Source of the DNA: an uncultured Bacteroidota bacterium
GTDB lineage: Bacteria; Bacteroidota; Bacteroidia; AKYH767-A; OLB10
Direction of reading: 5' to 3'
Assembly (NCBI GenBank): GCA_900696575.1
Contig: CAADHD010000020.1
Coordinates: 1-56,586 of the forward strand
DNA length: 56,586 nt
Below are positions 9,025 to 54,093 of this stretch, piece by piece. The first letter of the stretch is position 1, and the number at the start of each line of letters is the position of its first letter. The notes under the pieces were generated by a model. It did no database searches. It saw only the letters and a program-made list of their open reading frames with translations, and was not told where the DNA came from. The position numbers and the translations under genes are program-made.

Positions 9025-9739
9025 GGCCGTTTTCTTTCATAATGGCGGCTATAGCTTGCGACAGCTTCTCGCTTTTGGTGCGGCTGCGCAACTCTTCTAT
9101 GGTTAACTGAAATAGTATGTTGCCTTCGTTAAGGTAAATGACGTGGGTAATGATCTCATCCAGATCGCTGAGAATATGAGAAGTGATAAGAATGAGTTTA
9201 CCTTCATGGCGCGATCGGATTATTTTTTCTTTCAGTATTTCGGTACTCAGCGGGTCAAGGCCTGCGGTAGGTTCATCCAGAATAATTACTTCGGGGCTGA
9301 ACATGAAAGCAAGAGAAGCGCCTACCTTCTGCCTCATTCCGCCTGAGAGAGAATGCATGGCTTTGTTTTCAAATTTATTTATCCCGAATTGTTTATACAG
9401 ATCCATATCATAAGCCCCACTATGCTGGCGGATATCTTTTATCATTTCCATTATCTGGAAGGGAGTCATATTTTCGGGGTAGCGGCTTATCTGAGGCATA
9501 TAGCCGAAATGGTTGCGGTATTTCCATTGTTTAAGGACTGATTTATTTTGAAACAGAGCTTCGCCACTATCGGGATTTACGAGTCCGAGCAGAATTTTAA
9601 GCATGGTGGTCTTGCCTGAGCCGTTAGGCCCGATGAGTGCATAAGCCGAGCCTTTCTTCAATTGCAGGGTTAACCCGTTCAGTACATGAATTCGCCCGAA
9701 CTGCTTTTTCAGGCCCCTAATTTCCATCAGAGTTTCCAT
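9017..9739 (-). CDS. nosF: NosF-like ABC transporter ATP-binding protein
   Basis: 240 residues. Walker A GPNGSGKTT is at about residue 37, the ABC signature LSGGMRQKV at about 131, Walker B VIILDEP at about 151, followed by TAGLDP and a switch His in ITSHILSDLDE. It hydrolyses ATP on the cytoplasmic side of the NosDFY complex needed for N2O reductase maturation. It overlaps nosD by 13 bp and nosY by 8 bp, so the three are translationally coupled. The ORF begins METLMEIRG; Met5 is an alternative start. Confidence 0.92.
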   Translation of the reverse strand: METLMEIRGLKKQFGRIHVLNGLTLQLKKGSAYALIGPNGSGKTTMLKILLGLVNPDSGEALFQNKSVLKQWKYRNHFGYMPQISRYPENMTPFQIMEMIKDIRQHSGAYDMDLYKQFGINKFENKAMHSLSGGMRQKVGASLAFMFSPEVIILDEPTAGLDPLSTEILKEKIIRSRHEGKLILITSHILSDLDEIITHVIYLNEGNILFQLTIEELRSRTKSEKLSQAIAAIMKENGHA

Positions 9740-10977
9740 GGTTTCATGCGGGGTTGATTATCGAAAAGATCAACGGGAGTAATGGCAGGGGCTATTTTTT
9801 CCATGCGTTCGAAAATAGTAACCACAAAACTGCGATACAGAATCAACGCAAAAGGAATGCGTTCCATCAACAGGGCATACAAACTTACGGGGCGGTAAGG
9901 AATATCACCGGCAAGGTCGCGGTTAAGGTCATAGCCTTCGTATTTATCCCAGTAATTGTTGTGAAAAGTGTTACTGCTTGCCGGGCCGTTGGTTGAAACA
10001 TCAAAAGAGTTAGCGGTAAAGTTGTTGCGTACTATTTCGTTCGATTCGCAGTTGGAGAGAATCCTAACAGCCCATCCGTTATTATGAAAATTGTTTCCGG
10101 AAACAATGATTCGGTTACTGCCTTCCATGTAAATGCCAATGCTGTTATACTCGAACCGGTTGCTGATAATACGGCTGTCGGTTATATCTTTAAGCAGCAG
10201 GCCGTAGGCAGCACTGCCCCGGTTCAGGTCGAAGGTGTTGCCGGTCATATGAATGTTTTTAGAGTACATAACGGCCACCCCTGCACCATTATGATAAAAC
10301 CGGTTGTTGCTGTAAGCATTGCGGTCGGAAAACATAAAGTGCAGGCCGTATCGGATATTCGAGAAGCTTTTATTTTTTTCGATGCGCGAGTCGGTTACAA
10401 ACTCAAAATAAATTCCATCGCGGTGGCCGCTAACAGTATTGTCTTTAATTACGGCATGCTGGCATTTCCAGAGATGGATTCCGTTGCCGGAGGATTGTTC
10501 ATTTACGGCATACCCTTTAATATCATTTCCGGTAATGGTGCAACTATCCGAGTTAAGCAGGTAAATGCAGAAAAAATTATTGTCGAACTCATTATCCTGA
10601 ATGGTAACATGCTTTGTGCTGTAAAGCTTAATAGCAGCCAGGTCATCACTGTTTGATTTGCCTGAATTGATAAAGCGTAAGCCTTTAATTGTGGTATGAT
10701 GAGCTGAAATACTCAACATTTCCACTTTATGCTGCCCGTCAATAACAGGAAGTCCTTTACCAAGGATAGTAAGAGAATGATTGATTTTTAAGTTTCCTTC
10801 CCGGTAAGTTCCGGAATGAATGATAATTGTATCGCCAGGACTGCTTTCAGCGATGGCCTTGGCGATTGCATTTGGTGACGGAAGAACAGTAATGACATTG
10901 GCTGTAACAGATGAAAAATGTAACAGCCAAAAAGGAATAAAAAACAAGGAAAACAAAAATAAATGATGACGAAACAC
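9727..10977 (-). CDS. nosD: NosD, periplasmic beta-helix maturation protein
   Basis: 416 residues. A signal peptide covers residues 1-27 (FLFSLFFIPFWLLHFSS core). The rest is a right-handed parallel beta-helix with many repeating units such as GLRFINSG, VTIQDNEFDNNFFCIYL, SRIEKNKSFSNIRYGLHFM and ITDSRIISNRFEYNSIGIY. The C-terminal DIPYRPVSLYALLMERIPFA region is typical of NosD. In the family, NosD works with NosF and NosY outside the cytoplasmic membrane to mature the copper centres of NosZ. It is 18 bp downstream of the NosL fusion gene and overlaps nosF, so it is part of one operon. Confidence 0.93.
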   Translation of the reverse strand: MFRHHLFLFSLFFIPFWLLHFSSVTANVITVLPSPNAIAKAIAESSPGDTIIIHSGTYREGNLKINHSLTILGKGLPVIDGQHKVEMLSISAHHTTIKGLRFINSGKSNSDDLAAIKLYSTKHVTIQDNEFDNNFFCIYLLNSDSCTITGNDIKGYAVNEQSSGNGIHLWKCQHAVIKDNTVSGHRDGIYFEFVTDSRIEKNKSFSNIRYGLHFMFSDRNAYSNNRFYHNGAGVAVMYSKNIHMTGNTFDLNRGSAAYGLLLKDITDSRIISNRFEYNSIGIYMEGSNRIIVSGNNFHNNGWAVRILSNCESNEIVRNNFTANSFDVSTNGPASSNTFHNNYWDKYEGYDLNRDLAGDIPYRPVSLYALLMERIPFALILYRSFVVTIFERMEKIAPAITPVDLFDNQPRMKPWKL

Positions 10978-10995
10978 AAGTTGATGCTGCCAAAT

Positions 10996-12012
10996 TTATT
11001 GCTCACACTTTAATTCAAATCCTTTAAACAACTCCTCAAACTTAAAAACCTTTTCAGCAAGGAAAGGCTTAATATCGGTTTCGGCCGAAACAGAAGCAAG
11101 GTGGCTGCTCATGGGGCTGCGAAAAGCTTCACTTTTCAGAATTAGTACCTTGTTGGCCGGGACCAGTTCGGAAGTATTAAAGTCAATGAAATAAATACAG
11201 CGGATATTTTCTTTGGAAATGTTACCGGCATCAAGATACCCGGAAAGGCAGATGATGTCGTCAAAAACAAAATCTTTTCCATGCCGGTTGATGATTTGTG
11301 TGCCATAACGCTGATCCATCATAGTCATTTTGCAGAATTCGCAGGCATCCTTTTTCCATTGAACAGGCTGAGGGCCTGAAGAGCAGGAAACAAACATCAA
11401 TGCAAAAAGAGATGCGGCTACAGGCGCTGTATTGTTAAACTGACGTTGTTGCCTGATGAAAATAAATGAGGCCAGCATGGCAAGGGCAACGCTGAGGAAA
11501 AAAAGCCAGCCGGCAATATCAGGAATGGCAAAAGCCCCGAAGTTGAGCAGTTGCTTATAACCGATGAGCGGTGGCTGGTATGACATGCCCGGAACCTGGA
11601 TAGGCGCTGTAGGGTCAAGGTTGTGGCCATATTCATATTCCCAATGCCAGAAGTCGGCAATGGCGATAATCCCAAAAAGCATAAATATAAAGGTATAAGT
11701 CAGCGCCCATTTCTTTTTATTGAGGAAGGCGGCTATCAATCCGAAGAGCGAAAGAATGAGCACCGCATAAGGCAGGATTTTAAACTCAGGAAAATCTTCT
11801 TCTTTAATTAGCCCCATACCGATGTAATGATTCAGTCCGTTAATAACCTCCACATCACCGCTCAGTTTGGTAAGCCAAATTTTCATCACCAACCCTTCGG
11901 GATATTGAGGGGCGGTCAACTCAATTTTCCATAAGGGGAAAAGAAGAGTAACAGGAAGTAATAATGCAGATGCAAAAAGCAGCCAGCGTGTAAGGTTTTT
12001 TTGTTTTATCAT
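10996..12012 (-). CDS. nosL: Multi-pass membrane protein fused to a NosL copper-chaperone domain
   Basis: 338 residues from the ATG at 12012. An upstream in-frame start at 12069 would add 19 residues without signal character. Four hydrophobic segments at about 9-29, 79-97, 103-120 and 163-186 form an N-terminal membrane module. A fifth (197-209) ends FVSCSSG with a lipobox-like Cys210. The C-terminal half is NosL: DACEFCKMTMMDQRYG with Cys224, Cys227 and Met229, the Cu(I) site motif, then KDFVFDDIICLSGY. NosL normally is a separate lipoprotein that delivers copper to apo-NosZ. Here it is joined in one frame to the membrane part, with no internal start at the junction. It sits between nosZ and nosD. 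Confidence 0.88.
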   Translation of the reverse strand: MIKQKNLTRWLLFASALLLPVTLLFPLWKIELTAPQYPEGLVMKIWLTKLSGDVEVINGLNHYIGMGLIKEEDFPEFKILPYAVLILSLFGLIAAFLNKKKWALTYTFIFMLFGIIAIADFWHWEYEYGHNLDPTAPIQVPGMSYQPPLIGYKQLLNFGAFAIPDIAGWLFFLSVALAMLASFIFIRQQRQFNNTAPVAASLFALMFVSCSSGPQPVQWKKDACEFCKMTMMDQRYGTQIINRHGKDFVFDDIICLSGYLDAGNISKENIRCIYFIDFNTSELVPANKVLILKSEAFRSPMSSHLASVSAETDIKPFLAEKVFKFEELFKGFELKCEQ

Positions 12013-12096
12013 TTTGAAAATTGTTTTAGCAAAAAGGGGCAGAGGTTTTAAGCTCCGCCCCCATCTCAAACAAGTAAATAGCTGTATGCTGAGAAT

Positions 12097-14088
12097 TTAG
12101 TTTGCAGGAGCAGGAACATCTTTTCTTCCTGTTCCGAAGGTAAGCGGCACATTACTTCCGGCAGGAGACACGCGCATATAGCCCTGCATTTCCTGGTGAA
12201 GCGCTGAGCAGAAGTCGGTGCAATAAAACGGATAGACCCCGGGTTCTTTTGGCGTCCATGCCAGCGTTTGTGTTTCACCGGGCATAATCAGCAGTTCGGC
12301 ATTATTGGCACCTTTGATAACAAAACCATGCGGAATATCCCAGTCCTGTTCAAGGTTAGTAACGTGAAAGAATACCTCATCACCCACTTTCACACCTTCA
12401 ATATTATCAGGAGCAAAGTGTGATCGGATAGAAGTCATGTAAACATGAATTTTATTTCCTTCACGAACAACGCGTGCTTCTTTTTCACCTTTCGCTACAT
12501 AAGGATGATTGTTCTCTTCAATTTTAAAAATTTTCAAAGAATTTTTGGCTACCATTTCGGCAGGAATAGCTTCGGCATAGTGAGGTTCTCCGGTAGTTGG
12601 AAAGTCGAGCAGCAGTTGCATTTTATCACCATCAATCGAATAAAGCTGTGCCGACTGTGTAAGCTCGGGTCCGGTAGGCAGGTAACGGTCTTTGGTTATT
12701 TTGTTGTAAGCAATCACATACTTGCCCCACGGTTTTTTGGTTGGTCCGCCCGGTACGCAAAGGTGGCCGATAGAATAGTATGTCGGAACACGGTCGAGTA
12801 CCTGTAAATCACTTAGCCTCCACTTTACAATTTCGGAAGACACAAAGAAAGAAGTGTAGGCATTGCCTTTATCGTCAAACTCGGTATGCAGCGGGCCGAG
12901 GCCTGGTTTTTCAACTACGCCATGAAGTGCTGATTCGTATTTAATCACTTTCAGGCCATCATATTCGGCTTCAAAATCGCCTTTCGCAATTGCATCCTGT
13001 ATTTTCTGGAAAGAGAATACGGGTATCAGGGCTGCTAACTTTCCGCTGCCGACAATGTATTCACCAGTTGGGTTCACATCACAGCCATGCGGAGATTTCG
13101 GGCAGGGAATCAGGTAAACCACATCACTCAAATCTTTCTGCTCGAGCACAAGTACTTCATCTTTCATGGTTGAAGTGGCCGTGTGTGTGCTTTCATCATA
13201 AACATTATGAGCGTAACGCACTTTCTTTTTCACTCCTTTTCCGGCTTTGGCCATCTCTTCGGCTTTTTTCCAGTTAACGGCAAAAATGAAATCCTTGTCT
13301 TTTTGCGAAGCATTTACTTCTAACAGCGAGAATGCTTTTTCGGAGTTGTAGCACGAAAAGAAAAACCAATCGTGCGAGGGGCCTTTGCCTCCGCGTGCCA
13401 AATCGAAATTAACACCGGGCAGTTCAAGCTGGAAGGCAATATCCATTCTTCCGGTTTTTGGCTCAACACTGATAAAACTGATATGGCCTTTGAAGTTCTC
13501 TTTATAAGTTTCAATTGGAACGTCTTTTTTATCGCCAACAGGAACACTGAAACGGGTGCCGGCAACTACATACTCCGTATTTTCAGTGATGAAGGGAGAG
13601 GAGTGATTGCCTCCGCTGTTTGGCAGCTCAATAATTTCTGCTGTCCGGAAAGTACGCAGGTCAATACGTGCCACACGCGGGGTGTTGTTGCCGTTACCAA
13701 ATACCCAACGGCCATCATGGATGCCATCTGTTGTGGAGATGGCTGGATGGTGCAAATCATCCCAGGGCACAAAACCATGTGAAGTATTGAGCATAGGTTT
13801 GGTTTCTTCGCTGTAACCATAGCCGGAGGTCGGGTCAACGGAGAAAACAGGAATGATGCGAAACAAACGGCCGGAGGGTAAACCGTAAACACCCATTTGC
13901 CCATTAAAGCCTCCGGAAACAAAATTGTAAAACTCATCGTGCTTGCCCGGAGCAACATATACCTTGGAAGCTACATCGCCCGAAAGGGCTGTCATCGTTG
14001 TTTTAGGGCGGCAGCCGTTAAACCAGAAAGATAAAGCAAGGGCGATCACTGCAAAGAGTGAGATACCGCCAATTATTTTTTTGTTCAT
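12097..14088 (-). CDS. nosZ: Nitrous-oxide reductase NosZ, clade II (Sec-exported)
   Basis: 663 residues. The N-terminus (MNKKIIGGISLFAVIALALS) is a Sec-type signal without a twin arginine, the mark of clade II enzymes; FNGC at about 23-26 may be a lipid-attachment site. The seven His ligands expected for the CuZ centre are visible in DLHHP (113-114), GGNHSS, SHDWFF, SPHGCD, LHTEFD and SIGHLC. The CuA site is C-terminal: Cys623, Cys627, His631 and Met634 in YCTDFCSALHQEM, with a further His in DIPHGF. The enzyme reduces N2O to N2 in the periplasm. It lies 43 bp after the cytochrome gene and 84 bp before the membrane-NosL gene. Confidence 0.97.
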   Translation of the reverse strand: MNKKIIGGISLFAVIALALSFWFNGCRPKTTMTALSGDVASKVYVAPGKHDEFYNFVSGGFNGQMGVYGLPSGRLFRIIPVFSVDPTSGYGYSEETKPMLNTSHGFVPWDDLHHPAISTTDGIHDGRWVFGNGNNTPRVARIDLRTFRTAEIIELPNSGGNHSSPFITENTEYVVAGTRFSVPVGDKKDVPIETYKENFKGHISFISVEPKTGRMDIAFQLELPGVNFDLARGGKGPSHDWFFFSCYNSEKAFSLLEVNASQKDKDFIFAVNWKKAEEMAKAGKGVKKKVRYAHNVYDESTHTATSTMKDEVLVLEQKDLSDVVYLIPCPKSPHGCDVNPTGEYIVGSGKLAALIPVFSFQKIQDAIAKGDFEAEYDGLKVIKYESALHGVVEKPGLGPLHTEFDDKGNAYTSFFVSSEIVKWRLSDLQVLDRVPTYYSIGHLCVPGGPTKKPWGKYVIAYNKITKDRYLPTGPELTQSAQLYSIDGDKMQLLLDFPTTGEPHYAEAIPAEMVAKNSLKIFKIEENNHPYVAKGEKEARVVREGNKIHVYMTSIRSHFAPDNIEGVKVGDEVFFHVTNLEQDWDIPHGFVIKGANNAELLIMPGETQTLAWTPKEPGVYPFYCTDFCSALHQEMQGYMRVSPAGSNVPLTFGTGRKDVPAPAN

Positions 14089-37929: not shown

Positions 37930-40350
37930 ATGAAAAAGTTAATTCTGTTATTTCAGTTGTTGCCCGTTATGCTGTTAGCCCAGCGCATTACCGGAACAGT
38001 AACCGACAGCAGCGGTACAGCCATAGCCAATGCTGCCCTTATGGTTAACCACCGGTTGGTGGTTTATACCGGTTCCGATGGTTCTTTTATTATTCGCCCG
38101 CCTCAGAAAGGCGATGTAATACGCATCCGTCACATTGCATATCTTCCCTATGAAATGGAGTTTGACGGAACGCAACAAAAAATCAATGTCGTTCTGCAAC
38201 GGCAAAGCTATCCTACTGATGAGGTGGTTATAAGCGCTACACGCGCAGAGCGCAGATCGGCCACGGCTTATGTAAACATTGATAAGCAGGAAATCGAAAA
38301 AGCCAACTCAGGAAAAGACTTACCGTTTCTGATAGAGATGACCCCTTCGGCTGCAGCCACCAGCGATGCCGGTCATGGCATTGGTTATACCGGGCTGTGG
38401 ATTCGCGGCAGCGATCCTTCGCGTATCAATGTTACAATTAATGGTGTTCCGGTGAATGATGCCGAATCTCAATTGGTTTTCTGGGTTGATTTACCTGATT
38501 TGTCTTCTTCTGCTGATAACATACAGATACAGCGCGGGGCAGGAACATCAACCAACGGAGCCGGTGCTTTTGGCGGAAGCATTCACATACAAACCAACAA
38601 GCTGAATGATAAACCTTACGGAAGTATAAATTCATCGGTGGGCTCTTTCGGTACAGTTAAAAACACATTGCAGGGAGGAACAGGATTAATTAACAATCAC
38701 TTTACGTTTGATGTACGCCTTTCCTCCCTCCGCTCTGACGGCTACATTGACCGTGCTTCGGCTGACATGACATCGGCTTTCATTTCGCATGGTTATTACG
38801 GTAAGAAAACCACGGCACGGCTCAATATCTTTACCGGAAAAGAAATCACCTATCAAAGCTGGTACGGAACGCCTGAAGCGCGTATCAGAAATGATGTTCA
38901 GGGAATGATTGATTTCACTGTCCGCAACGGATTAGACAGCCGCGATTCGCTCAACCTGCTTACTGCCGGGCGTACCTATAATTTTTACACCTATAAAAAC
39001 CAGGTGGATAATTACAAGCAGGATAATTATCAGTTACATCTGGCACATCAGTTCAGCCCGAAACTCTACGGTTCTCTCGCATTGCATTTTACCAAAGGCA
39101 AGGGCTATTATGAGGAATACAAAAAACAAAGCGACCTTAGCCATTACGGAATAGAAGATTCGCTGGCGCAACATGTAATCGGGGCGGTGAATCTTGTTCG
39201 CAGAAAATGGCTCGATAATGATTTTTACGGAATGATTTATTCCATGAGCTATGAAACATCCGCTAATTTAAAATTCACGCTGGGCGGGGCATGGAATCAA
39301 TATGATGGAGATCATTTCGGTGAATTGATCTGGGCAGCTTATCTGCCTGTTGATGAAATTCCATACCGCTATTATTTTAACAACGGGCTTAAATCGGATT
39401 TCAATTCTTTCCTGAAAGCAGTGTGGAGTAAAGGGGCATGGTCTGTATATGGCGATGTGCAGTTCCGCAGAACAGGGTATCATTTCAGCATTTTGGATGG
39501 CAGAGGGAATCCGGCAGAAAATGATTTTGATGAAGCCACTTTTTTCAATCCGAAAGCAGGCCTGTCTTATAACCTGAATAGTCATCAACGCATTTACACA
39601 TCCATAGCACAGGCCGGCAAGGAACCTTCTAGAAAAGATTACATTGATAACCCCCGCGGGCAGCGCCCTTTACCTGAACACATGACCGATGTGGAAGCAG
39701 GATATGAATACAGCAGCAGCGATTTTACGGCTGCCGTCAATTTTTATCACATGCAGTACAACAACCAGTTGGTGCTTAACGGAAGCATAAACGATGTGGG
39801 CGAGCCGGTGCGCATCAATGTAAAAAGCAGTTACCGGCAAGGTGTTGAACTGATGGCTTCCGCACACCCTGTAAAATGGTTCAGAACTTATGGCAACCTT
39901 ACCCTTAGCCGCAACCGCGTTAAATCTTATTTTGAAATAATCCCTGATTACGATGACTACAGCAACGACAGCCTGTTGTTAAGCAACACTCCCGTTTCAT
40001 TCTCTCCTGAGTTTATAGCTGCATGGAGTGCTGAAACAGCCCCCATTAAAAGATTCATTGCAGGAATTCAGCTTAAATACACCGGCAAACAGTTTCTTGA
40101 CAATACAGGCAGCCAAACCCGTATGCTGAAGGCATACCATTTTTTCAACGCATGGGCAAGTTTTAACGTTAAGATAAACAACAACCAACAGCTGGAGCTG
40201 CGCTGCATGGTTTACAATGTTACCAACCGCCTAAACGAAACAAACGGTTATACTTACAGTTATCTTTATGCCGGTGAACGTACCACCGAAAATTTTTATT
40301 ACCCGCAGGCAGGCAGGCATGTAATGGTAAGTGCAGGCTGGAAATTTTGA
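37930..40350 (+). CDS. TonB-dependent outer-membrane receptor, predicted thiamin uptake
   Basis: 806 residues. A signal peptide (LILLFQLLPVMLLAQ) is followed by a carboxypeptidase-like domain (ITGTVTDSSGTAIANAAL) and an extended TonB-box region with PTDEVVISATRAERRS. The plug contains LPFLIEMTPSAAATSDAG, LWIRGSDPSRINVTINGVP and RGAGTSTNGAGAFGGSI. A beta-barrel ends with FYYPQAGRHVMVSAGWKF. The substrate is predicted from the TPP riboswitch directly upstream: TPP-regulated TonB receptors of Bacteroidota are known candidates for thiamin import. No inner-membrane thiamin transporter or thi synthesis gene is in the window. Confidence 0.93.
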   Translation: MKKLILLFQLLPVMLLAQRITGTVTDSSGTAIANAALMVNHRLVVYTGSDGSFIIRPPQKGDVIRIRHIAYLPYEMEFDGTQQKINVVLQRQSYPTDEVVISATRAERRSATAYVNIDKQEIEKANSGKDLPFLIEMTPSAAATSDAGHGIGYTGLWIRGSDPSRINVTINGVPVNDAESQLVFWVDLPDLSSSADNIQIQRGAGTSTNGAGAFGGSIHIQTNKLNDKPYGSINSSVGSFGTVKNTLQGGTGLINNHFTFDVRLSSLRSDGYIDRASADMTSAFISHGYYGKKTTARLNIFTGKEITYQSWYGTPEARIRNDVQGMIDFTVRNGLDSRDSLNLLTAGRTYNFYTYKNQVDNYKQDNYQLHLAHQFSPKLYGSLALHFTKGKGYYEEYKKQSDLSHYGIEDSLAQHVIGAVNLVRRKWLDNDFYGMIYSMSYETSANLKFTLGGAWNQYDGDHFGELIWAAYLPVDEIPYRYYFNNGLKSDFNSFLKAVWSKGAWSVYGDVQFRRTGYHFSILDGRGNPAENDFDEATFFNPKAGLSYNLNSHQRIYTSIAQAGKEPSRKDYIDNPRGQRPLPEHMTDVEAGYEYSSSDFTAAVNFYHMQYNNQLVLNGSINDVGEPVRINVKSSYRQGVELMASAHPVKWFRTYGNLTLSRNRVKSYFEIIPDYDDYSNDSLLLSNTPVSFSPEFIAAWSAETAPIKRFIAGIQLKYTGKQFLDNTGSQTRMLKAYHFFNAWASFNVKINNNQQLELRCMVYNVTNRLNETNGYTYSYLYAGERTTENFYYPQAGRHVMVSAGWKF

Positions 40351-40470
40351 TTTGGGTATTTAGATTCATGAAAACCGGAAATGAGGGTGCTCATTTAAGC
40401 TGCTTTTAAACATACGGATCCGATTATTGCTTAATCAAATATCTCATCTTTGCGTTTCGTTAAAAAAGTC

Positions 40471-41361
40471 ATGAAAAACACGCTCGTCATCATCCTAATT
40501 GCTTCCATCGTTTTCTCATCCTGCAAAAAAGACAAGGACCAGCCGGCCCCCAAAGAGCCGATGCTTGTTTTTCGTTTTAAGTTTGATCCAACGCAACAGC
40601 GTTTGGATAATTTCGGAAATCCGTCAACTGTACCATCGAATCACGGAGCACAATCGCCTTCGTTTAACAAGATGAGTGCTCATTACATTGAACTTGCGCC
40701 CGGTGAATTTACTCCGCTTGGCTCAGGCGCTGTTGTTTTTCATCATGATGAAACAAATGCAGGAGGCGCCCATGCAATTGATTTCAGCAAATCTGTACTT
40801 GCGGGCAATAACCAAACATTTTTTTCCATTCCCTTAAAAAATGTTGCAGCCGGCAATTACCAATACCTGCGGGTTTCATTAGCTTATCAGAATTATGATA
40901 TCCAAATGCGTGTCGCTGGATCTGATATTACCGGCACACTGGCTTCTTTCATCGGCTACAACACCTACATCAGCTCATTCAAAATAAAAGACAGCACCAT
41001 TGTATTGAATGCTAACCGAAGGCAGGGCTACTGGGCTTTCGAAATACATGATTTCGGTTTCCCGCTCCCTCAATATGTGTCATCCGGATTAGCGCCCGAA
41101 GGGGCAACTACGGTTCCTAATCCACTGTCCGGAACCTCTCCAATCCCTGCAGGCTCATGCGTGGTTACAGGAGCATTTGCATCGCCACTGGCAATTACCG
41201 GAAGTGAAACGGACGACATCATCATCACCGTTTCGCTTTCGACCAACAACAGTTTTGAATGGGTGGAGAACAGCACCGCAGGATTTTTTGAACCGGCCGA
41301 TGGCGACACGGTGGTTGACATGGGAATTCGCGGATTGATTCCTTTGGTAACAAAACAATAG
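40471..41361 (+). CDS. Lipoprotein of unknown function (MbnP-like beta protein)
   Basis: 296 residues from the ATG at 40471. A typical lipoprotein signal is followed by the lipobox IVFSSCKKDKD. The body is beta-rich, with FRFKFDPTQQRLDNFG, HYIELAPGEFTPLG and VVFHHDETNAGGAHAIDFSK, and its arrangement recalls MbnP-type copper-related lipoproteins; this is only a weak resemblance. There is no catalytic motif. CATCTTTG about 25 bases upstream is a possible -7 box. It lies 120 bp after the thiamin receptor and 24 bp before rnpA and may belong to either transcript. Confidence 0.6.
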   Translation: MKNTLVIILIASIVFSSCKKDKDQPAPKEPMLVFRFKFDPTQQRLDNFGNPSTVPSNHGAQSPSFNKMSAHYIELAPGEFTPLGSGAVVFHHDETNAGGAHAIDFSKSVLAGNNQTFFSIPLKNVAAGNYQYLRVSLAYQNYDIQMRVAGSDITGTLASFIGYNTYISSFKIKDSTIVLNANRRQGYWAFEIHDFGFPLPQYVSSGLAPEGATTVPNPLSGTSPIPAGSCVVTGAFASPLAITGSETDDIIITVSLSTNNSFEWVENSTAGFFEPADGDTVVDMGIRGLIPLVTKQ

Positions 41362-46082: not shown

Positions 46083-46112
46083 TTGTAATCCTTACTGATA
46101 ATTTTACTTTTG
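46083..46112 (+). promoter_or_regulatory. tRNA-Lys promoter
   Basis: TTG (46083-46085), a 19-base spacer and TACTTTTG (46105-46112): a textbook Bacteroidota -33/-7 pair. The likely start is about 25 bases before the mature tRNA. The promoter is only 7 bp beyond the stop of the preceding gene. Confidence 0.75.
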
Positions 46113-46142: not shown

Positions 46143-46215
46143 GATTCCGTAGCTCAGCTGGTAGAGCATTACACTTTTAATGTAGGGGTCCTGGGTTCGA
46201 ATCCCAGCGGAATCA
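46143..46215 (+). tRNA. tRNA-Lys (anticodon TTT)
   Basis: 73 nt. The acceptor stem GATTCCG pairs with CGGAATC, with discriminator A at 46215. The D arm is GCTC-AGCTGGTA-GAGC, the anticodon loop CTTTTAA with TTT, and the T arm CTGGG-TTCGAAT-CCCAG. CCA is not encoded. No duplicated 3' end or integrase was found nearby. Confidence 0.97.
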
Positions 46216-46226
46216 CTGAAATCATC

Positions 46227-46262
46227 GCAACCTGCTGTTCCCCAGCAGGTTGCTTTGTTTTT
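46227..46262 (+). terminator. Intrinsic terminator of the tRNA-Lys gene
   Basis: Perfect 11-bp stem GCAACCTGCTG / CAGCAGGTTGC (46227-46237, 46243-46253) with a 5-base loop, followed by TTTGTTTTTG. Confidence 0.9.
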
Positions 46263-46571: not shown

Positions 46572-49500
46572 TTGAGCAGACAACTGTTATTGATATGCTG
46601 TGCCATATTTTTTTGTTATAGGGGCGCAGTTAAGGCTCAGGAAACCATCATTTCCGGAATTGTAACCTCTTCGGCTGACGGAAAGCCATTGCCTTTTGTT
46701 TCCGTTTCTGTTGCAGGCACAATGAAGGGAGTAGTAACTGATTTGGATGGCAGGTATTCCATTCAAAATGTAAAACCTGACGATTCGCTGATGTTCAGTT
46801 TTGTTGGTTTTACAACTCAGAAAATAAAAACAGGTAATCAGAAAGTAATTAATGTGAAATTACAACCTGCCACAGCAGAACTTGGCGAAGTGGTGGTTAC
46901 GGCTCTTGGCATCAGCCGCCAGAAACGAGAACTTGGTTATTCTACCGAGAAAATTAAAGGGGATGAAATTCAGCAATCCAACTCACCGAATATTCTCAAT
47001 ACAATAACCGGGAAAACAGCCGGAGTGCAGATTACCAATCCTGATGGTGTAGATGGTGGCACCACGCGCATTACCATCCGTGGCAACAACAGCATTAGCG
47101 GAAATAACCAGCCGCTTATAGTAGTGGATGGAGTTCCGCTGAACAATGATCCGGGATTAACGGATGTAGGCCGCGGTCAGGACTGGGGCTCTGCCATTAA
47201 CAACATCAGCATGGCCGATGTGGAAGATGTGAACATATTAAAAGGAGGTGCTGCATCTGCCTTGTATGGCGCTCGCGGGGCAAACGGTGTTTTACTGATA
47301 ACTACCAAAAAAGGAAGGAAGCAGGAAGGTATTGGTGTTTCTTATAGTTTATCGTACAAGATTACCCATCCATACCGTTACCGCGCTGTTCAGAATAAAT
47401 ATGGCGGGGGCGCTCCATCCGTTTCACTTGCTGCTCCTGACTTTACGTATGCGCTTGACGGAACTCCCATGCTTCCTTCTCTTGCCACCGATCCTGAATT
47501 CGGATATCCGGGTTCGGCTGTTTCATGGGGGCCGGCTTACAATGGTCAGATGATTTTATGGTGGGACAGCATTTTCCGCCCATGGTTGCCACAGCCGGAT
47601 AATCTGAAAATTCCATTCCGCGATGGAAACAACACAACTCATCATATAGCCATTGAAGGCGGGGGTGATGCCGGCACTTTACGATTTTCCATTACCCGCA
47701 CTGATAATACTCCCATAGTTCACAACAGCCATTTTAAACAGACAACCCTCAGCACCAATTCGTCTCTCAAAGTTTCCGATAAAGTAAACATTGGTCTGGC
47801 AGCAGCATTTACAGATTATCACCGGCTTAACAGCCCAATGCTTGGTGAAGCTGCCAATTCCTTCAATAAAGGATTGCTGTATTCGTGGCCGCGCAGTTAT
47901 GCGGGCGAAGACAAGGAGCAGTATGCCCTGGCTGACGGAACACGCAACCCCATGTCGGGTTATCCATACCTGTACATTGACAAATACATGTGGTGGAATT
48001 ACTTTAACAACAACACCACCCTTGACCGGAAAAAATTAACAGGCGGTATATCCATCAATTATGAAATTCTTTCATGGCTGAACTTTACCGGCAGAACAGG
48101 CATTGATTATACCGCTGACGAATTTAGAACCAAGCATAAACCTGCCGATCTGATTGGGCTTCTGGATGGTTATTACTCCGAAACCAATCAGCGTGACAAC
48201 AGCTACCATCATGAGTTTTTATTTACAGCCACCAAAGAGAAAATTTTTAAATCGGACATCAATGCCGGTTTCCATATTGGCGGTTCGCGGTGGGACAGAG
48301 ATATGCGAAATGAAAAAGCACATTCGGGTACATGGTATTATCCTAACTGGTACAGCCTTGCTAATTACACTCCGGCAGTTTATGGTCAGGATGCACAGGG
48401 AAATGTAACCGTGATTGTTAAAGGCGATGATCCTTCAACTCTTATTCCGCAAACAAATTTTTACAGAAAAAAAATCAACTCCTTGTTTTCATTCCTCAAT
48501 TTGTCGTACAGGAACTATTTGTTTCTTGAATTAACCGGACGAAACGACTGGTCTTCCACCTTGCCTGATAATGCTAACTCGTATTTCTATCCTGGTATGT
48601 CTGTTAGTTTTATAGCTACTGATGCATTGCAGATAAAAAGCAGCAAACTCAGTTTTGCGAAAGTGAGAATGGGCGCAGCCCAAACAGCTACCGATACCGA
48701 CCCCTATCTCACAGAGTTTTATTACAACACCGGTTTGTTTGGCGGGCAACAGTCATCGTCATTTCCGAACACCATTCCACCCATCGCTTTAAAACCACAG
48801 CGTGTTAATTCTTATGAAGCCGGAACCAATCTTGGTTTTTTCAATGACAAACTAACCATTGATTTTACTTACTATTACCGTTACTGTTTTGATCAGATTA
48901 TTTCGCTTCCTGTTCCTGCTTCTTCAGGGGCAACTATGGTGGCTATTAATGAAGGGGTGCTTACAAACCGCGGAATTGAATTATTGGTGAATGCAACTGT
49001 GCTAAACAAAAGAAACCTGTTGGTAAAATCAGGATTGAATTTTTCACGCAACAGAAATAAAGTGGTTAGCCTTGGCGAGTATGCCGACACGTATGTGCTG
49101 GCCGACATCTGGGGTGAAAACGGTCCGCTGATGGCATTGCGCGAAGGCGATGATTTCGGAACCATATTCGGATGGGATTATGTTTACCGTGACGGTCAAC
49201 CGGTAGTGAGCGATGACGGTAAAAAGTATTTAATATCTGATAAACGAGTTCCCATCGGAAATGCCTCTCCGCATTTTCTTGCCGGATGGACTACCGAATT
49301 CAGGTATAAAAATTTTACCATGCGTACATTGATTGATACAAAGTATGGCGGTGATATTTACTGCGGCTCCTATGTTACAGGGTTGCAAACCGGTCAAAGC
49401 CCTGAAACATTGCTGGAACGCGATGGCGGAGGATTGCCTTACACCGATGCCAATGGCAACACTTCCAACATAGGGGTAATACTCCCCGGTGTTCATGCCG

Positions 49501-49847
49501 ATGGAACTCCGAACAACACCGTGGTGCATTATTACTACAAGTACATGCCTAATGCAGGAGGATGGGGACACTTTCTTTCCAAACCCGGCATTGTAGAAGA
49601 TACATGGGTAAAATTCCGCGAAGTAGTACTGACCTATACTTTCCCTCAACATATACTTGGCAGGCAAAAAGTTTTCCGCGAGTTAACGCTTGCCTTTACT
49701 GCACGCGATTTATTTTACATATACAGCTCCGTACCCGACCGCATCAATCCCGAAGGGCTGATGGGGGCAGGTGATGCGCAGGGGTTTGAATGGGCTTCAC
49801 TACCCGGGGTAAGATCTTTTTCGTTCGGAATAAATGCACGGTTTTAA
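46572..49847 (+). CDS. SusC/RagA-type TonB-linked outer-membrane protein
   Basis: 1091 residues from a TTG start; no in-frame ATG precedes it and the reading SRQLLLICCAIFFCYRGAV gives a proper signal peptide. A carboxypeptidase-like domain (ISGIVTSSADGKPLPFVSVS) leads to the SusC signature plug (GVQITNPDGVDGGTTRITIR, IVVDGVPLNN, DVNILKGGAASALYGARG) and a barrel ending VRSFSFGINARF. It pairs with the SusD lipoprotein 9 bp downstream to import oligosaccharides or peptides. The adjacent PNGase F-like protein suggests glycopeptide or N-glycan substrates, which is inference. Confidence 0.95.
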   Translation: MSRQLLLICCAIFFCYRGAVKAQETIISGIVTSSADGKPLPFVSVSVAGTMKGVVTDLDGRYSIQNVKPDDSLMFSFVGFTTQKIKTGNQKVINVKLQPATAELGEVVVTALGISRQKRELGYSTEKIKGDEIQQSNSPNILNTITGKTAGVQITNPDGVDGGTTRITIRGNNSISGNNQPLIVVDGVPLNNDPGLTDVGRGQDWGSAINNISMADVEDVNILKGGAASALYGARGANGVLLITTKKGRKQEGIGVSYSLSYKITHPYRYRAVQNKYGGGAPSVSLAAPDFTYALDGTPMLPSLATDPEFGYPGSAVSWGPAYNGQMILWWDSIFRPWLPQPDNLKIPFRDGNNTTHHIAIEGGGDAGTLRFSITRTDNTPIVHNSHFKQTTLSTNSSLKVSDKVNIGLAAAFTDYHRLNSPMLGEAANSFNKGLLYSWPRSYAGEDKEQYALADGTRNPMSGYPYLYIDKYMWWNYFNNNTTLDRKKLTGGISINYEILSWLNFTGRTGIDYTADEFRTKHKPADLIGLLDGYYSETNQRDNSYHHEFLFTATKEKIFKSDINAGFHIGGSRWDRDMRNEKAHSGTWYYPNWYSLANYTPAVYGQDAQGNVTVIVKGDDPSTLIPQTNFYRKKINSLFSFLNLSYRNYLFLELTGRNDWSSTLPDNANSYFYPGMSVSFIATDALQIKSSKLSFAKVRMGAAQTATDTDPYLTEFYYNTGLFGGQQSSSFPNTIPPIALKPQRVNSYEAGTNLGFFNDKLTIDFTYYYRYCFDQIISLPVPASSGATMVAINEGVLTNRGIELLVNATVLNKRNLLVKSGLNFSRNRNKVVSLGEYADTYVLADIWGENGPLMALREGDDFGTIFGWDYVYRDGQPVVSDDGKKYLISDKRVPIGNASPHFLAGWTTEFRYKNFTMRTLIDTKYGGDIYCGSYVTGLQTGQSPETLLERDGGGLPYTDANGNTSNIGVILPGVHADGTPNNTVVHYYYKYMPNAGGWGHFLSKPGIVEDTWVKFREVVLTYTFPQHILGRQKVFRELTLAFTARDLFYIYSSVPDRINPEGLMGAGDAQGFEWASLPGVRSFSFGINARF

Positions 49848-49856
49848 ATTCAGGTC

Positions 49857-51527
49857 ATGAAAAAAACTCAATACAAAACCACAGGACTTGCCAATCAGGT
49901 ATTATCGAAGCCTGGCTTTGCATTGATCTGCGCTTCTGTTCTCATATCCATCCTGTTTTTCTCGTCATGCAAAAAAGATTTTGATGTCATCAATAAAAAC
50001 CCTAACGGATTTACCACCGCCAGTGACGGAGCGCTTTTTAATTCTGTAATCAGTTCCATGCGTTCAGGTTGGAATGAACAGTTGTATGTAAATGTTTCCG
50101 TGCTTTATAAAGAAACACAGTTAGCCGCCCTGCCTCAGGTGCGCTGGAATAATTATACGCTGGGCACGGAGGAAATCTGGTCGAACTATTATACCATGCT
50201 TCCGAACCTGCGCGAACTGGAAAGAAGGTTTGAAACATACGATGCTTCGAATCCCGGAGTGAAGAACATGATGGCTATGGAGAAAATTATACTGGCCTGC
50301 AAGACTTTTAAAGTAACTGATCTGTTTGGCGATATTCCTTTTTCTGAAGCGGGTTATGGGTTCAGCAACCTCAATATGCTGCATCCGAAATTCGATTCGC
50401 AGGAAAGCATTTACAAAACACTGTTAAACGAATTGAAGTGGGCAGTTGAAAACATAAACATTCAAGCTACAGGAGAAGAGCCGTTTCTCACTTTCAGAAA
50501 GTTTGACAATCTGTTTTTCGGGGATTTGAAAAAGTGGAAAAAATTTGCCAATTCGCTTCGTCTGCGATATGCCATGCGTATGGTGAATAAAGAACCTGCA
50601 CTGGCCGGACAAATCTTCTCCGACATTTTCGAAAACCAACAAGAAGCCTTCGGCATAAATGCCTTCGGCCAGTTGAATAATGATCATACCGAGTGTGCGG
50701 CATTGTATCCGTATCAGCTTGGTTACCGCAATGAAAGCAAGGGTTGGTCGTTTAACCAGTCGAAAGACATGCGCATGGGAACTACTTTCTGGCGCTTGCT
50801 TTCCAAACATGACAGCACTGACGGCAGCGGAATTTTTGACCCGCGTGCTTATTATTTTTTTGATACCAATAACAATAACAAGTGGATTCCATATCCAAAC
50901 AACCCTCCTTCCGGTACGCCTGATGGCGGAATTCCGTATGAGTACCATCGCGATTTAAATTATTCCATTAAAGGCGCAGATTGCCTGTATTCTCCGGTTA
51001 ATTATTACCTGGCACGTGATATGGATTATCAACCTGATATTTTAATAACAGGTGCTGAAGTATTGTTCATTCGTGCAGAAGCGTATTTATTGGGAATCGG
51101 TGTACCGAAAGATTTAGGAAATGCTACCTCTTCTTTTTTGGACGGCATTCAGTTTTCACTTAACTTCTGGAAACAGGTAATGACGGCTTCGCGGTTACCC
51201 TTGGGTGCCCCGTTTTCAAACAACGTTTCTGTTCCGCAGAATCTGAATTTTATTTCCGTTCAGAACAACCTCGCATTTTTTACCGGTACAGAAGAGCAGC
51301 AACTCCGCGAAATTTATGCGCAATGCATGATTGATTTTTTCCGGCAGCCGCAGGAAGCTTTTGCACTGGCAAGACGTACCGGCATGACCCCGTTTGACGG
51401 AGTGCCTTCACAAGTTTACCGGTTCCCGATTCCGCCAACGGAAGTTTCCTACAACGCTTCCAATTACAGCAGTACCTTCGGAGCATCGGGCGATAATATG
51501 AACACAAAAGTGTGGTGGATGAAATAA
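49857..51527 (+). CDS. SusD/RagB-like outer-membrane lipoprotein
   Basis: 556 residues. An unusually long N-terminus (about 25 residues) precedes the hydrophobic stretch and lipobox (ISILFFSSCKKDFD, Cys about 39). The body follows the SusD-like group: NKNPNGFTTAS, a helical TPR-like core with EKIILACKTFKVTDLFGDIPFS and FANSLRLRYAMRM, then a late region YLLGIG and FPIPPTEVSYN. It caps the SusC channel and binds the substrate at the cell surface. Met start at 49857 is 9 bp after the susC stop, and the next gene follows after 67 bp. Confidence 0.93.
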   Translation: MKKTQYKTTGLANQVLSKPGFALICASVLISILFFSSCKKDFDVINKNPNGFTTASDGALFNSVISSMRSGWNEQLYVNVSVLYKETQLAALPQVRWNNYTLGTEEIWSNYYTMLPNLRELERRFETYDASNPGVKNMMAMEKIILACKTFKVTDLFGDIPFSEAGYGFSNLNMLHPKFDSQESIYKTLLNELKWAVENINIQATGEEPFLTFRKFDNLFFGDLKKWKKFANSLRLRYAMRMVNKEPALAGQIFSDIFENQQEAFGINAFGQLNNDHTECAALYPYQLGYRNESKGWSFNQSKDMRMGTTFWRLLSKHDSTDGSGIFDPRAYYFFDTNNNNKWIPYPNNPPSGTPDGGIPYEYHRDLNYSIKGADCLYSPVNYYLARDMDYQPDILITGAEVLFIRAEAYLLGIGVPKDLGNATSSFLDGIQFSLNFWKQVMTASRLPLGAPFSNNVSVPQNLNFISVQNNLAFFTGTEEQQLREIYAQCMIDFFRQPQEAFALARRTGMTPFDGVPSQVYRFPIPPTEVSYNASNYSSTFGASGDNMNTKVWWMK

Positions 51528-51594
51528 CCTGAAAACTGTATCACCAAGAAACTTTAACGCATTAAAATAAAATCAACACATAAAACTAAATACA

Positions 51595-54093
51595 ATGAAA
51601 AATCTCTACTCAAAAATCAGCAGACTGGCATTTCTGTTCTGCATGTTGGCTGCGCTTAATGTGAGCGCACAATCCAATCAATACCTCGACTTTGACGGCA
51701 TTGATGATTTCGTTACCGTTGACAATGCTTCTCAACTCATAGCCGGATCATCAGCCATGAGTATGACCGGATGGTTTTACTGCAATGCTCTTTCTTACGG
51801 ACAAGGCATGATGGGTTTCCGCGCCACACAGGGTGGATTTTATCTGATTCAGTTAAACAACGGGGTGATTGAATGCCGCTTTCTTAATTCCAACGGAACA
51901 TTATACGAGTATGTAGCCCCGGCCAATACTACTGTTCCTCAGGTGTGGCAGCACTTTGCCTGGGTTTACACCGGCTCGCAGGTTCAATTATATGTGAATG
52001 GAAACTTATCAGGCGCGGTGGCAGCATCGGGAACCATTAACAACACTTCCATTCAGTTTGCTATCGGCAAAAGCATACTGAGCGGATTCAACTTTGTTTA
52101 CAACGGAAGAATTGACGAAGTGTCTGTTTGGAACAAAGCATTATCGCAGACCGAAATTCAGGATATGATGAACAATGAACTTTTAGGAACAGAACCCAAT
52201 CTTCAGCTTTACTATAAGTTCAATCAGGGTGTACCGGGCGGAAACAATACCGGAATTTCGTCACTGATTACTGAAGTAAACGCTCCAACCTACAACGGAA
52301 ACTTCAACCTTTTCGCTTTAACCGGCCCGACTTCAAATTTTAACGGAAGTCTGAATCCGTCTTTTCAGGCTATTTCATTCCCTCAGCTTCCTGATAAACT
52401 CACAACCGATCCTCCTTTTAAATTGAATGCAACTGCTACCTCAGGCTTGCCGGTTTATTACCACCTGATTTCAGGGCCGGCATCCATCAGCAACGATTCT
52501 GTTTACCTGGCAGGAACGCCAGGACCTGTTACCATCCGCGCTTATCAGCCCGGCAATGCTTCTTACGATTCTGCTGCTTCCATTTATAACACTTTTAATG
52601 TAATTGACCCTGCATTGAATGTTCCGGTTATTGAACCGCGCAATCCTGTAAACAGTGCCGATGTGTATATGCCTACGCTTTCCACCATGCAACTGGCGGC
52701 CAAGGTTAACATTCCTTACCCGGCATTATTCTCAGTGCAGAATGTTCAGTTTGTAATTAACGGACAAACCATCCCTGCCATTGATCACCAGAATCAGCAT
52801 TACACCGGATGGTGGACTCCGCCTGCTTTCGGGCCTTACACTATTCAGATTGTTTCGACCAGCAATTTCGGGGCTGTGGCTACCGAAACGGTTAACATCA
52901 ACGTTGTATCATCAGTTACCACACTAAACAATGTCCCGGCATTCAGTGGTATATGGCTTGATGCAAATACTCCTTCGGTTACTGTTGACGGAATTCTGCC
53001 TTCCTATGTTGGCGCTTTTGATACCATTGTGGCTACCCTGACGGTTACCTGCCCTCCGGGTGGTTGCGGGCCGTGGGACAGAGTAGCCAGCATTGACCTG
53101 CAGGGACATGACGGCAAATGGTTTGAAATTATCCGTTACATCACCCCTTATGGCGTTCCCTGTTCGCACAGCATCAACCTGGCCGACTATATGTCGCTGT
53201 TGCAAGGCAAGGTAACTTTCCGCGCCAATTGCGCAACGCTTGATAACGGCTTTCAGTATGCTCTTAGTTTTACTTTTAAAGATGGACCGCCTCCGCATAA
53301 ATACAGCCGCGTTGAACAGGTTTGGAAAAACATCTATCCCTTTGGAGATTATGCCAACCTGCAACCTGTTCCTGCATTCTCCATCAACTATCCTAATCTT
53401 ACTGTTGAGGCAAAACTTAAATTAGTAAGCACAGGCCACGGTTGGGGAAATCTGAACACCGGAAATGCTGCCGAATTTTATAATGCTACCCATTCACTTT
53501 TGGTAAATGGGGCGAATACCTATTCGCAGAATAACTGGACAACCTGCAATCCGAATCCTGATGCTTGCCAGCCGCAGAACGGAACATGGACATACAACCG
53601 TGCCGGATGGTGTCCCGGTTCTATTGCACGTTATTTTGATTATGACTTCACTCCGTTTATTTCCTCATCAGCGGTTAACCTTGAGTACAAATTTTTCGCA
53701 GGCTATGTTGACCTCTGCCATCCTAATCATCCTAACTGCATAACAGGTGTTACATGCGCTGACTGCAATGATGGATTTAATCCTACGCTGGATGTAAACT
53801 GCAACATTGTTTACTGGTTTGACGACCCGGCTGCATTGTCGGTTATCGAAAAGGATGAATTGAGTTTTGTCATCTTCCCCAACCCGGCCAGCGGTTTTCT
53901 GAACATGGGCGCATGGAGCACAGGTAAGAAATACACAGTTACCGTATTTAATGTTCTGGGAAATGCTGTAAATAAGTTTGACTGGAACGGACAACTCATA
54001 CAACTTGATCTTACTAATTATTCAAAAGGTATTTACATGATTAAAGTAAGCGACAGCAAACATGCTTTAGTTAAAAAATTGGTTATTCAGTAG
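51595..54093 (+). CDS. T9SS-secreted protein: LamG domain plus PNGase F-like amidase domain
   Basis: 832 residues. Signal peptide 1-25. A LamG/concanavalin domain spans about 28-220 (YLDFDGIDDFVTVDN, WQHFAWVYTGSQVQLYVNG, GRIDEVSVWNKALS). Beta linker domains run to about 440. Residues 445-750 resemble peptide-N-glycosidase F: CPPGGCGPWDRVASI with Asp495 at the position of catalytic Asp60, WFEIIRYITPYG, STGHGWG, AEFYNATH with Glu627 at the place of Glu206, and NRAGWCPG. The position of Glu118 aligns with Cys546 or a neighbour, so one key acid seems lost. The C-terminus (757-832; FVIFPNPASGFLN, GIYMIKVSDSKHALVKKLVI) is a T9SS type A sorting domain. It may cleave N-glycans from glycoproteins outside the cell. 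Confidence 0.88.
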   Translation: MKNLYSKISRLAFLFCMLAALNVSAQSNQYLDFDGIDDFVTVDNASQLIAGSSAMSMTGWFYCNALSYGQGMMGFRATQGGFYLIQLNNGVIECRFLNSNGTLYEYVAPANTTVPQVWQHFAWVYTGSQVQLYVNGNLSGAVAASGTINNTSIQFAIGKSILSGFNFVYNGRIDEVSVWNKALSQTEIQDMMNNELLGTEPNLQLYYKFNQGVPGGNNTGISSLITEVNAPTYNGNFNLFALTGPTSNFNGSLNPSFQAISFPQLPDKLTTDPPFKLNATATSGLPVYYHLISGPASISNDSVYLAGTPGPVTIRAYQPGNASYDSAASIYNTFNVIDPALNVPVIEPRNPVNSADVYMPTLSTMQLAAKVNIPYPALFSVQNVQFVINGQTIPAIDHQNQHYTGWWTPPAFGPYTIQIVSTSNFGAVATETVNINVVSSVTTLNNVPAFSGIWLDANTPSVTVDGILPSYVGAFDTIVATLTVTCPPGGCGPWDRVASIDLQGHDGKWFEIIRYITPYGVPCSHSINLADYMSLLQGKVTFRANCATLDNGFQYALSFTFKDGPPPHKYSRVEQVWKNIYPFGDYANLQPVPAFSINYPNLTVEAKLKLVSTGHGWGNLNTGNAAEFYNATHSLLVNGANTYSQNNWTTCNPNPDACQPQNGTWTYNRAGWCPGSIARYFDYDFTPFISSSAVNLEYKFFAGYVDLCHPNHPNCITGVTCADCNDGFNPTLDVNCNIVYWFDDPAALSVIEKDELSFVIFPNPASGFLNMGAWSTGKKYTVTVFNVLGNAVNKFDWNGQLIQLDLTNYSKGIYMIKVSDSKHALVKKLVIQ

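Follow-up and report, generated by a model that had tools for sequence, protein, structure and literature searches.

A SusCD pair beside a T9SS-tagged LamG and PNGase F-like protein: a candidate glycoprotein-capture module in an uncultured Bacteroidota bacterium

The stretch of DNA analysed here (hereafter the window) comprises 56,586 nucleotides from the genome of an uncultured Bacteroidota bacterium. Three of its genes lie next to each other on the plus strand, in the order SusC, SusD and a LamG plus PNGase F-like gene, with 9 bases between the first two and 67 bases between the last two. The first gene (46572-49847; 1091 aa from a TTG start that is uncertain) encodes a SusC-type TonB-dependent outer-membrane transporter. 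It scores 534.5 bits against TIGR04056 (cut-off 368.25); of 18 matches to this model in the 2.87 Mb genome, no other exceeds the cut-off. The second (49857-51527; 556 aa) encodes a SusD-like lipoprotein lid that matches PF12771 (164.1 bits) and PF12741 (141.7 bits; cut-offs 27) and, as judged by eye, carries a lipobox-like FSSC close to its N terminus; when the whole genome was searched with PF12771, this was the only match. With a SusC above the TIGR04056 cut-off and a SusD immediately downstream, the two genes were classified as a SusCD pair. The third gene (51595-54093; 832 aa) encodes a putative secreted protein with LamG, PNGase F-like and type IX secretion system (T9SS) type A domains, identified by Pfam, TIGR and phmmer searches. 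A previous interpretation of the window (the sequence-only reading) had described the same plus-strand trio, and both its coordinates and its domains were confirmed.

Enzymes of the PNGase F family cut whole sugar chains off glycoproteins. The window protein starts with a signal-like N terminus (judged by eye), followed by a LamG domain (Laminin_G_3 in Pfam, 80.7 bits; residues 34-189, positions 51694-52161), a PNGase F-like two-jelly-roll domain (residues about 441-751, positions 52915-53847) and a T9SS type A C-terminal sorting domain (residues 760-832, positions 53872-54090), the last recognized by both PF18962 (54.9 bits, cut-off 27) and TIGR04183 (40.5 bits, cut-off 23). Profile searches with the two N-glycanase families, which the sequence-only reading had proposed as a check, bore it out for one half of the enzyme: N-glycanase_C (PF09113) matched residues 595-684 with 49.7 bits (cut-off 25), while the N-glycanase_N model gave no reported match in this protein at E≤0.01. 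In phmmer comparisons, residues 466-701 aligned significantly with PNGase F over both halves (3pms, E = 3.1e-23; 1pgs, E = 4e-23), and a profile built from seven LamG-type sequences (defined below) matched 1pgs with E = 1.2e-35 and the type II enzyme 4r4z with E = 0.0036. Structure prediction, another of the proposed checks, gave a concordant result. Residues 441-755 were modelled with AlphaFold from five sequences (pLDDT 67.9, pTM 0.69), and the model had 1pgs as its top Foldseek match in the PDB (E = 1.7e-17, TM 0.70); ranks 1-18 were all chains of known or putative PNGases, with zebrafish Ngly2 and type II enzymes within these best 18. The model of the full-length protein (pTM 0.44) was of low confidence across LamG, and the packing of the domains was therefore left uninterpreted.

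Upstream, the trio is bounded by a tRNA-Lys (TTT) gene predicted by ARAGORN (46143-46216, plus strand) and a GNAT-like gene; downstream, its first two neighbours, encoding a GNAT acetyltransferase and a T9SS protein, are on the opposite strand. Between the tRNA gene and the trio lies a terminator-like hairpin (46227-46253, plus strand) of 11 pairs followed by a T-rich tail, found by a pattern scan that recovered 9 sites overall against 9.1 expected in shuffled sequences. The pattern scan, which is a weak test, placed neither a terminator-like nor a sigma-70-like site within the gaps of 9 and 67 bases. The sole strict match to a Bacteroidetes-type promoter motif is located at 46083, ahead of the tRNA gene. 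The spacing of the three genes suggests that they may be co-transcribed. None of the eight proteins scanned for a linked regulator (hybrid two-component, or sigma/anti-sigma) contained a regulator domain. The window also holds nitrous oxide reductase genes on the minus strand (9727-14088), including those for a nos_propeller protein (12097-14088) and NosD (9727-10977), which suggest N2O respiration, and a plus-strand lipoprotein-like ORF of 303 aa (40450-41361) without a Pfam match at E≤0.01, located after a TonB-dependent receptor (37930-40350).

The observation that the locus lacks a glycoside hydrolase was correct: none was found among the trio genes or the flanking genes scanned, and 10 other large ORFs of the window gave no match to glycoside hydrolase families. 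Classical polysaccharide utilisation loci are recognized by SusCD accompanied by one or more genes for glycosidases or lyases, and by a linked regulator; here, an amidase gene is present instead of the former, and the flanking genes scanned yielded no regulator. Such a composition had been called unusual, a view that does not agree with published precedent, as the PNGase gene of Bacteroides sartorii is described as adjoined by a susC/D pair only (PMC9522356, accessible text).

The neighbourhoods of the three genes were compared in related bacteria (L numbers below are labels of the comparison loci). All ten LamG-type sequences found, the window included, match the LamG part of the window protein with at least 51% identity and form one clade (support 100/99). 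The order and orientation of SusC, SusD and PNGase are the same in eight of the ten, on eight distinct contigs (window, L032, L033, L035, L056, L057, L100 and L101; SusC of L056 is cut by the contig end). The remaining two, L034 and L099, encode the full-length protein with another gene upstream and SusCD not nearby, on less than 2.7 kb of contig there in both cases. Across the trio loci the gaps are 6-30 bases (SusC-SusD) and 27-218 bases (SusD-PNGase; about 56 in L032 after start correction), whereas the outer neighbours vary from locus to locus. Of the 395 genomes in the class sample, 7 contained relatives of the SusD at E≤1e-30; the five closest (identity at least 46%, window included) all adjoin a PNGase gene, and the two more distant ones (38% and 34% identity) do not. 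Pairwise identities at seven loci are correlated between SusC and SusD (0.95), SusC and PNGase (0.77) and SusD and PNGase (0.83), with L056 left out because of its cut SusC and 79 residues trimmed from L032, whose predicted ORF began too far upstream. L032 does not follow the common pattern: its SusCD is nearest to those of L100 and L101, but its PNGase groups with L099, and the three genes thus have not always travelled together. A genome of the same genus (G001) showed neither the trio SusD nor the PNGase at the thresholds used, and for this reason the trio is probably accessory.

It is very improbable that the neighbourhood is accidental and that the PNGase-like protein has a purpose unconnected with that of SusCD. 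Consistent with such a reading, the majority of PNGase-like genes with examined flanks have no SusCD nearby, and PMC12381499, in its accessible text, terms most of its six genes orphans. Against it stand the unchanged order and orientation in eight LamG-type loci despite changing outer neighbours, the position of the genome's single above-cut-off SusC beside this gene, and the recurrence of the pairing elsewhere on the tree. The conservation of the trio in related bacteria makes the link between SusCD and the PNGase look real.

PNGase-like matches were detected in 142 of the 395 genomes of the class search, and flanks were examined at 13 places from the first search, 20 best new and 20 hand-picked places from the class search, three of one genus and four loci. 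At several of these the contig ends close to the PNGase gene (e.g. L064, L108, L113 and L126), which makes the absence of SusCD there weak. More distantly related PNGase-like genes also have SusCD as neighbours in L062, L063, L148, L149, L150, L111 and L129, and in L114 the start of a SusC follows at the contig end. A separate gene is inserted in L062, L063, L148, L149 and L150, that of L148 being a LamG/T9SS gene by Pfam; such a gene adjoins the PNGase gene in L148 and L111, whereas the corresponding parts are fused in the window protein. L111 also has an adjoining MFS transporter gene and a GH92 gene, divergently oriented, and in L129 SusCD and PNGase are followed by genes for Asparaginase_2 (PF01112), CutC, GH92 and an alpha-L-fucosidase. 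The region L129:3199-16648, CutC-family gene included, resembles a fuller N-glycan locus. On a tree of 45 rows the SusCD label changes seven times, at least six of these changes being forced by well-supported branches, and gains or losses therefore recur. This tree omits L150 and 14 further rows (13 with an unaligned N-half, plus L118); L058, which shares its contig with L033, and the fragment L068 had been left out of the alignment beforehand.

Both catalytic residues of PNGase F have equivalents in the alignments, namely Asp495 (53077-53079, plus strand; Asp60 in PNGase F), within W494-D495-R496, and Glu627 (53473-53475, plus strand; Glu206 in PNGase F). H615, R669 and W672 are kept as well. 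The catalytic Glu is conserved in all 56 aligned PNGase-like rows and the Asp in all 42 rows with both N-half cysteines aligned; in the other 14 the N-half is poorly aligned and the Asp cannot be judged. Both residues are present in each of the ten LamG-type rows. Conserved PNGase features, according to the accessible text of PMC12381499, include an aromatic-Asp-positive/aromatic motif, a pair of His (or Trp) and Glu, and an aromatic residue over the second GlcNAc. The first two correspond to W494-D495-R496 and to H615 with E627 in the window protein; one alignment placed W617, not H615, opposite Trp191 of PNGase F. With regard to the third, Leu549 occupies the position of PNGase F Trp120. A separate set of sequences (L065-L067, L122, L124-L126, L128, L130, L133, L134, L136 and L137; proteins of about 740-1180 aa, that of L126 being incomplete) resembles the PNGase domain chiefly in its C-terminal part, with the region of the catalytic Asp unaligned and the Glu kept.

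The sequence-only reading had missed two substitutions in the window protein, which affect the residues corresponding to Glu118 and Trp120 of PNGase F. Alignments put Ala547 (53233-53235, plus strand) at the position of Glu118, part of the core-binding site (PMC9522356, accessible text), and Leu549 at that of Trp120. At position 118, the ten sequences of the LamG type have Ala (5), Gly (2), Glu (1), Thr (1) or Phe (1), and at position 120 they have Leu (6), Phe (2), Ser (1) or Gln (1), never Trp. In the sister clade (L059, L060 and L102-L110), by contrast, Glu or Asp at 118 and Trp at 120 are found in 11 of 11 sequences; its members are without SusCD in the examined flanks, and one of them, L107, has a weak LamG match too. 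Judging from the aligned residues, replacement of Glu118 and Trp120 is a mark of the LamG-type clade and not of its sister. In PNGase F, O6 of the second GlcNAc is reportedly bound by Glu118, and a Glu118 mutant is reported to be nearly inactive (Kuhn et al. 1995).

The lack of an acidic residue at 118 in nine of the ten LamG-type sequences, and of Trp at 120 in all of them, would fit a PNGase-like domain that is no longer a useful amidase and that, together with LamG, forms a surface binding protein feeding glycans or glycoproteins to SusCD. We consider this unlikely, as the window protein keeps the catalytic Asp and Glu, the WDR motif, H615, R669 and W672, the catalytic pair is intact throughout the LamG-type rows, and active PNGases without this Glu exist. 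Type II PNGases have Gly at the 118 position, with Glu418 likely taking over the role of Glu118, and Bacteroides group 1 PNGases have Asp there (PMC9522356, accessible text); zebrafish Ngly2, which aligns an Ala with Glu118, is described as an active enzyme that requires the equivalent Asp and Glu (PMC12753239, accessible text). Since active type II PNGases and Ngly2 lack this Glu, the change at 118 and 120 would speak for altered core recognition rather than lost activity. A strict type II (core alpha1,3-fucose) PNGase, which would have Gly at position 118 and a pocket for the fucose, was considered and rejected, residue 547 being Ala and not Gly and the sequence being closer to type I. More tentatively, the LamG-type, mostly SusCD-linked PNGases might constitute a subfamily in which the core-binding pocket was rebuilt at about the time of joining LamG and SusCD and became suited to glycans beyond the reach of PNGase F, for example N-glycans of plants, algae or invertebrates with a core alpha1,3-fucose, or sugars attached to Asn that lack a chitobiose core; we regard this as possible, though doubtful.

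PNGase F itself (type I, Elizabethkingia meningoseptica; 1pgs/3pms) shares the fold and both catalytic residues with the window protein and is its closest solved sequence. Unlike PNGase F, the window protein also contains LamG and a T9SS domain, is encoded beside SusCD, has Ala and Leu in place of Glu118 and Trp120, and matches neither Cys204 nor Cys208 with a cysteine. Surface glycan release coupled to SusCD import, as proposed for the window, is reportedly a feature of two glycoprotein-foraging loci, Gpd of Capnocytophaga canimorsus and Don of Bacteroides fragilis, which are said to use endo-glycosidases rather than a T9SS amidase. The group 2 (type II) PNGases of Bacteroides resemble the window protein in their non-acidic position 118 and, for some, in having susC/D neighbours; they differ in that they have Gly at this position, the solved one has an NBL domain and the two tested are predicted to be periplasmic (PMC9522356, accessible text), whereas the window protein has Ala, LamG and a T9SS sorting domain and is much closer to type I in sequence. 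PNGaseL of Flavobacterium akiainvivens carries a signal for the T9SS and leaves free space around C3 of the core GlcNAc, and PNGaseRz of Runella zeae belongs to a putative N-glycan operon with fucosidases, a mannosidase, GH18 and an asparaginase; the accessory modules described for these proteins are other than LamG, and neither SusC nor LamG is a term in the main text of that paper (PMC12381499), as far as it is accessible. PNGases joined to SusCD, a T9SS-tagged PNGase and an N-glycan operon with a PNGase are thus already known from the accessible parts of these two papers. A LamG-PNGase-SusCD module was not found among the titles and abstract openings listed in a literature search in which subscription journals are thinly covered.

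The best match of the window SusC in the PDB is BT_2264 (BT2264; 284.6 bits over residues 94-1091; next best 128.2), which is also the best solved match of the PNGase-linked SusCs of L100 (293.3 bits), L111 (384.3 bits) and L129 (261.5 bits), the second-best matches of the four ranging from 128 to 142 bits. The BT2263/BT2264 complex (PDB 5fq6) was seen with an oligopeptide (PMC7782687, accessible text); its SusD (5fq4, 5fq6_A) is matched by that of the window weakly, at 1e-5. The amidase might be a helper for protein feeding that strips N-glycans for proteases, the SusCD pair importing deglycosylated peptides and the glycans being waste. The wide margin by which all four SusCs match BT_2264, the missing glycosidase and the preference of one Bacteroides PNGase for glycopeptide (PMC9522356, accessible text) agree with this possibility, to which we give a minor share of probability: the trio includes no protease gene, and L129, with a BT2264-like SusC, adjoins GH92, fucosidase and Asparaginase_2 genes. 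Similarity to BT2264 was not accepted as proof of peptide cargo, the comparison covering PNGase-linked SusCs only; with L129 beside glycosidases, the cargo cannot be read off from the SusC subfamily. The sequence-only reading had allowed for import of either the glycans or the deglycosylated peptides; we slightly favour the freed N-glycan as the imported product, a deglycosylated peptide or glycopeptide being nearly as likely.

Outside the locus, the genome encodes one GH92, one GH20 and two Asparaginase_2 proteins; the GH92 is 50% and the Asparaginase_2 proteins are 53% and 31% identical to those of L129. No N-glycan theme was apparent among the scanned neighbours of the GH92, GH20 or closer Asparaginase_2 genes. 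GH92 was rejected as a marker of the trio, being near-universal in the order sample (35 of 41 genomes, including the same-genus genome without the trio), and its presence in the window genome therefore says little. With these enzymes encoded elsewhere, the locus need not be self-contained. The earlier proposal of a glycan-capture locus is upheld in so far as it concerns an amidase domain with its catalytic pair, a T9SS domain and coupling to SusCD, the last indicated by synteny, recurrence and the N-glycan enzymes beside two of the related pairs; it is to be amended in that later steps may lie outside the locus.

Taken together, the locus is probably a minimal glycoprotein-capture module, in which a surface N-glycanase is coupled to a dedicated SusCD importer and later steps are encoded in trans. 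Weighing against this reading are the replaced Glu118 and Trp120, the two LamG-type sequences and two SusD relatives without their partner genes nearby, the discordant L032, the peptide seen with BT2264, the lack of a regulator among the scanned flanking genes and the many PNGase-like genes that have no SusCD in the examined flanks. The PNGase F-like protein would be exported via the T9SS and held at, or released near, the cell surface, where its LamG domain may hold a glycan or glycoprotein while the PNGase F-type domain, with Asp495 and Glu627 as the predicted catalytic pair, would cut the N-glycan from asparagine. The adjacent SusCD would import the released product, and a GH92 mannosidase, a GH20 hexosaminidase and a glycosylasparaginase-like protein encoded elsewhere may carry out the later steps. 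The locus also points to a PNGase subfamily whose core-binding site is altered and which might yield tool enzymes for glycans that PNGase F leaves. If the proposed capture module is real, it would mean that uncultured Bacteroidota are able to reserve a SusCD pair, in this genome the one with the only SusC above the TIGR04056 cut-off, for glycoproteins, and that an amidase can be the single enzyme encoded beside it.
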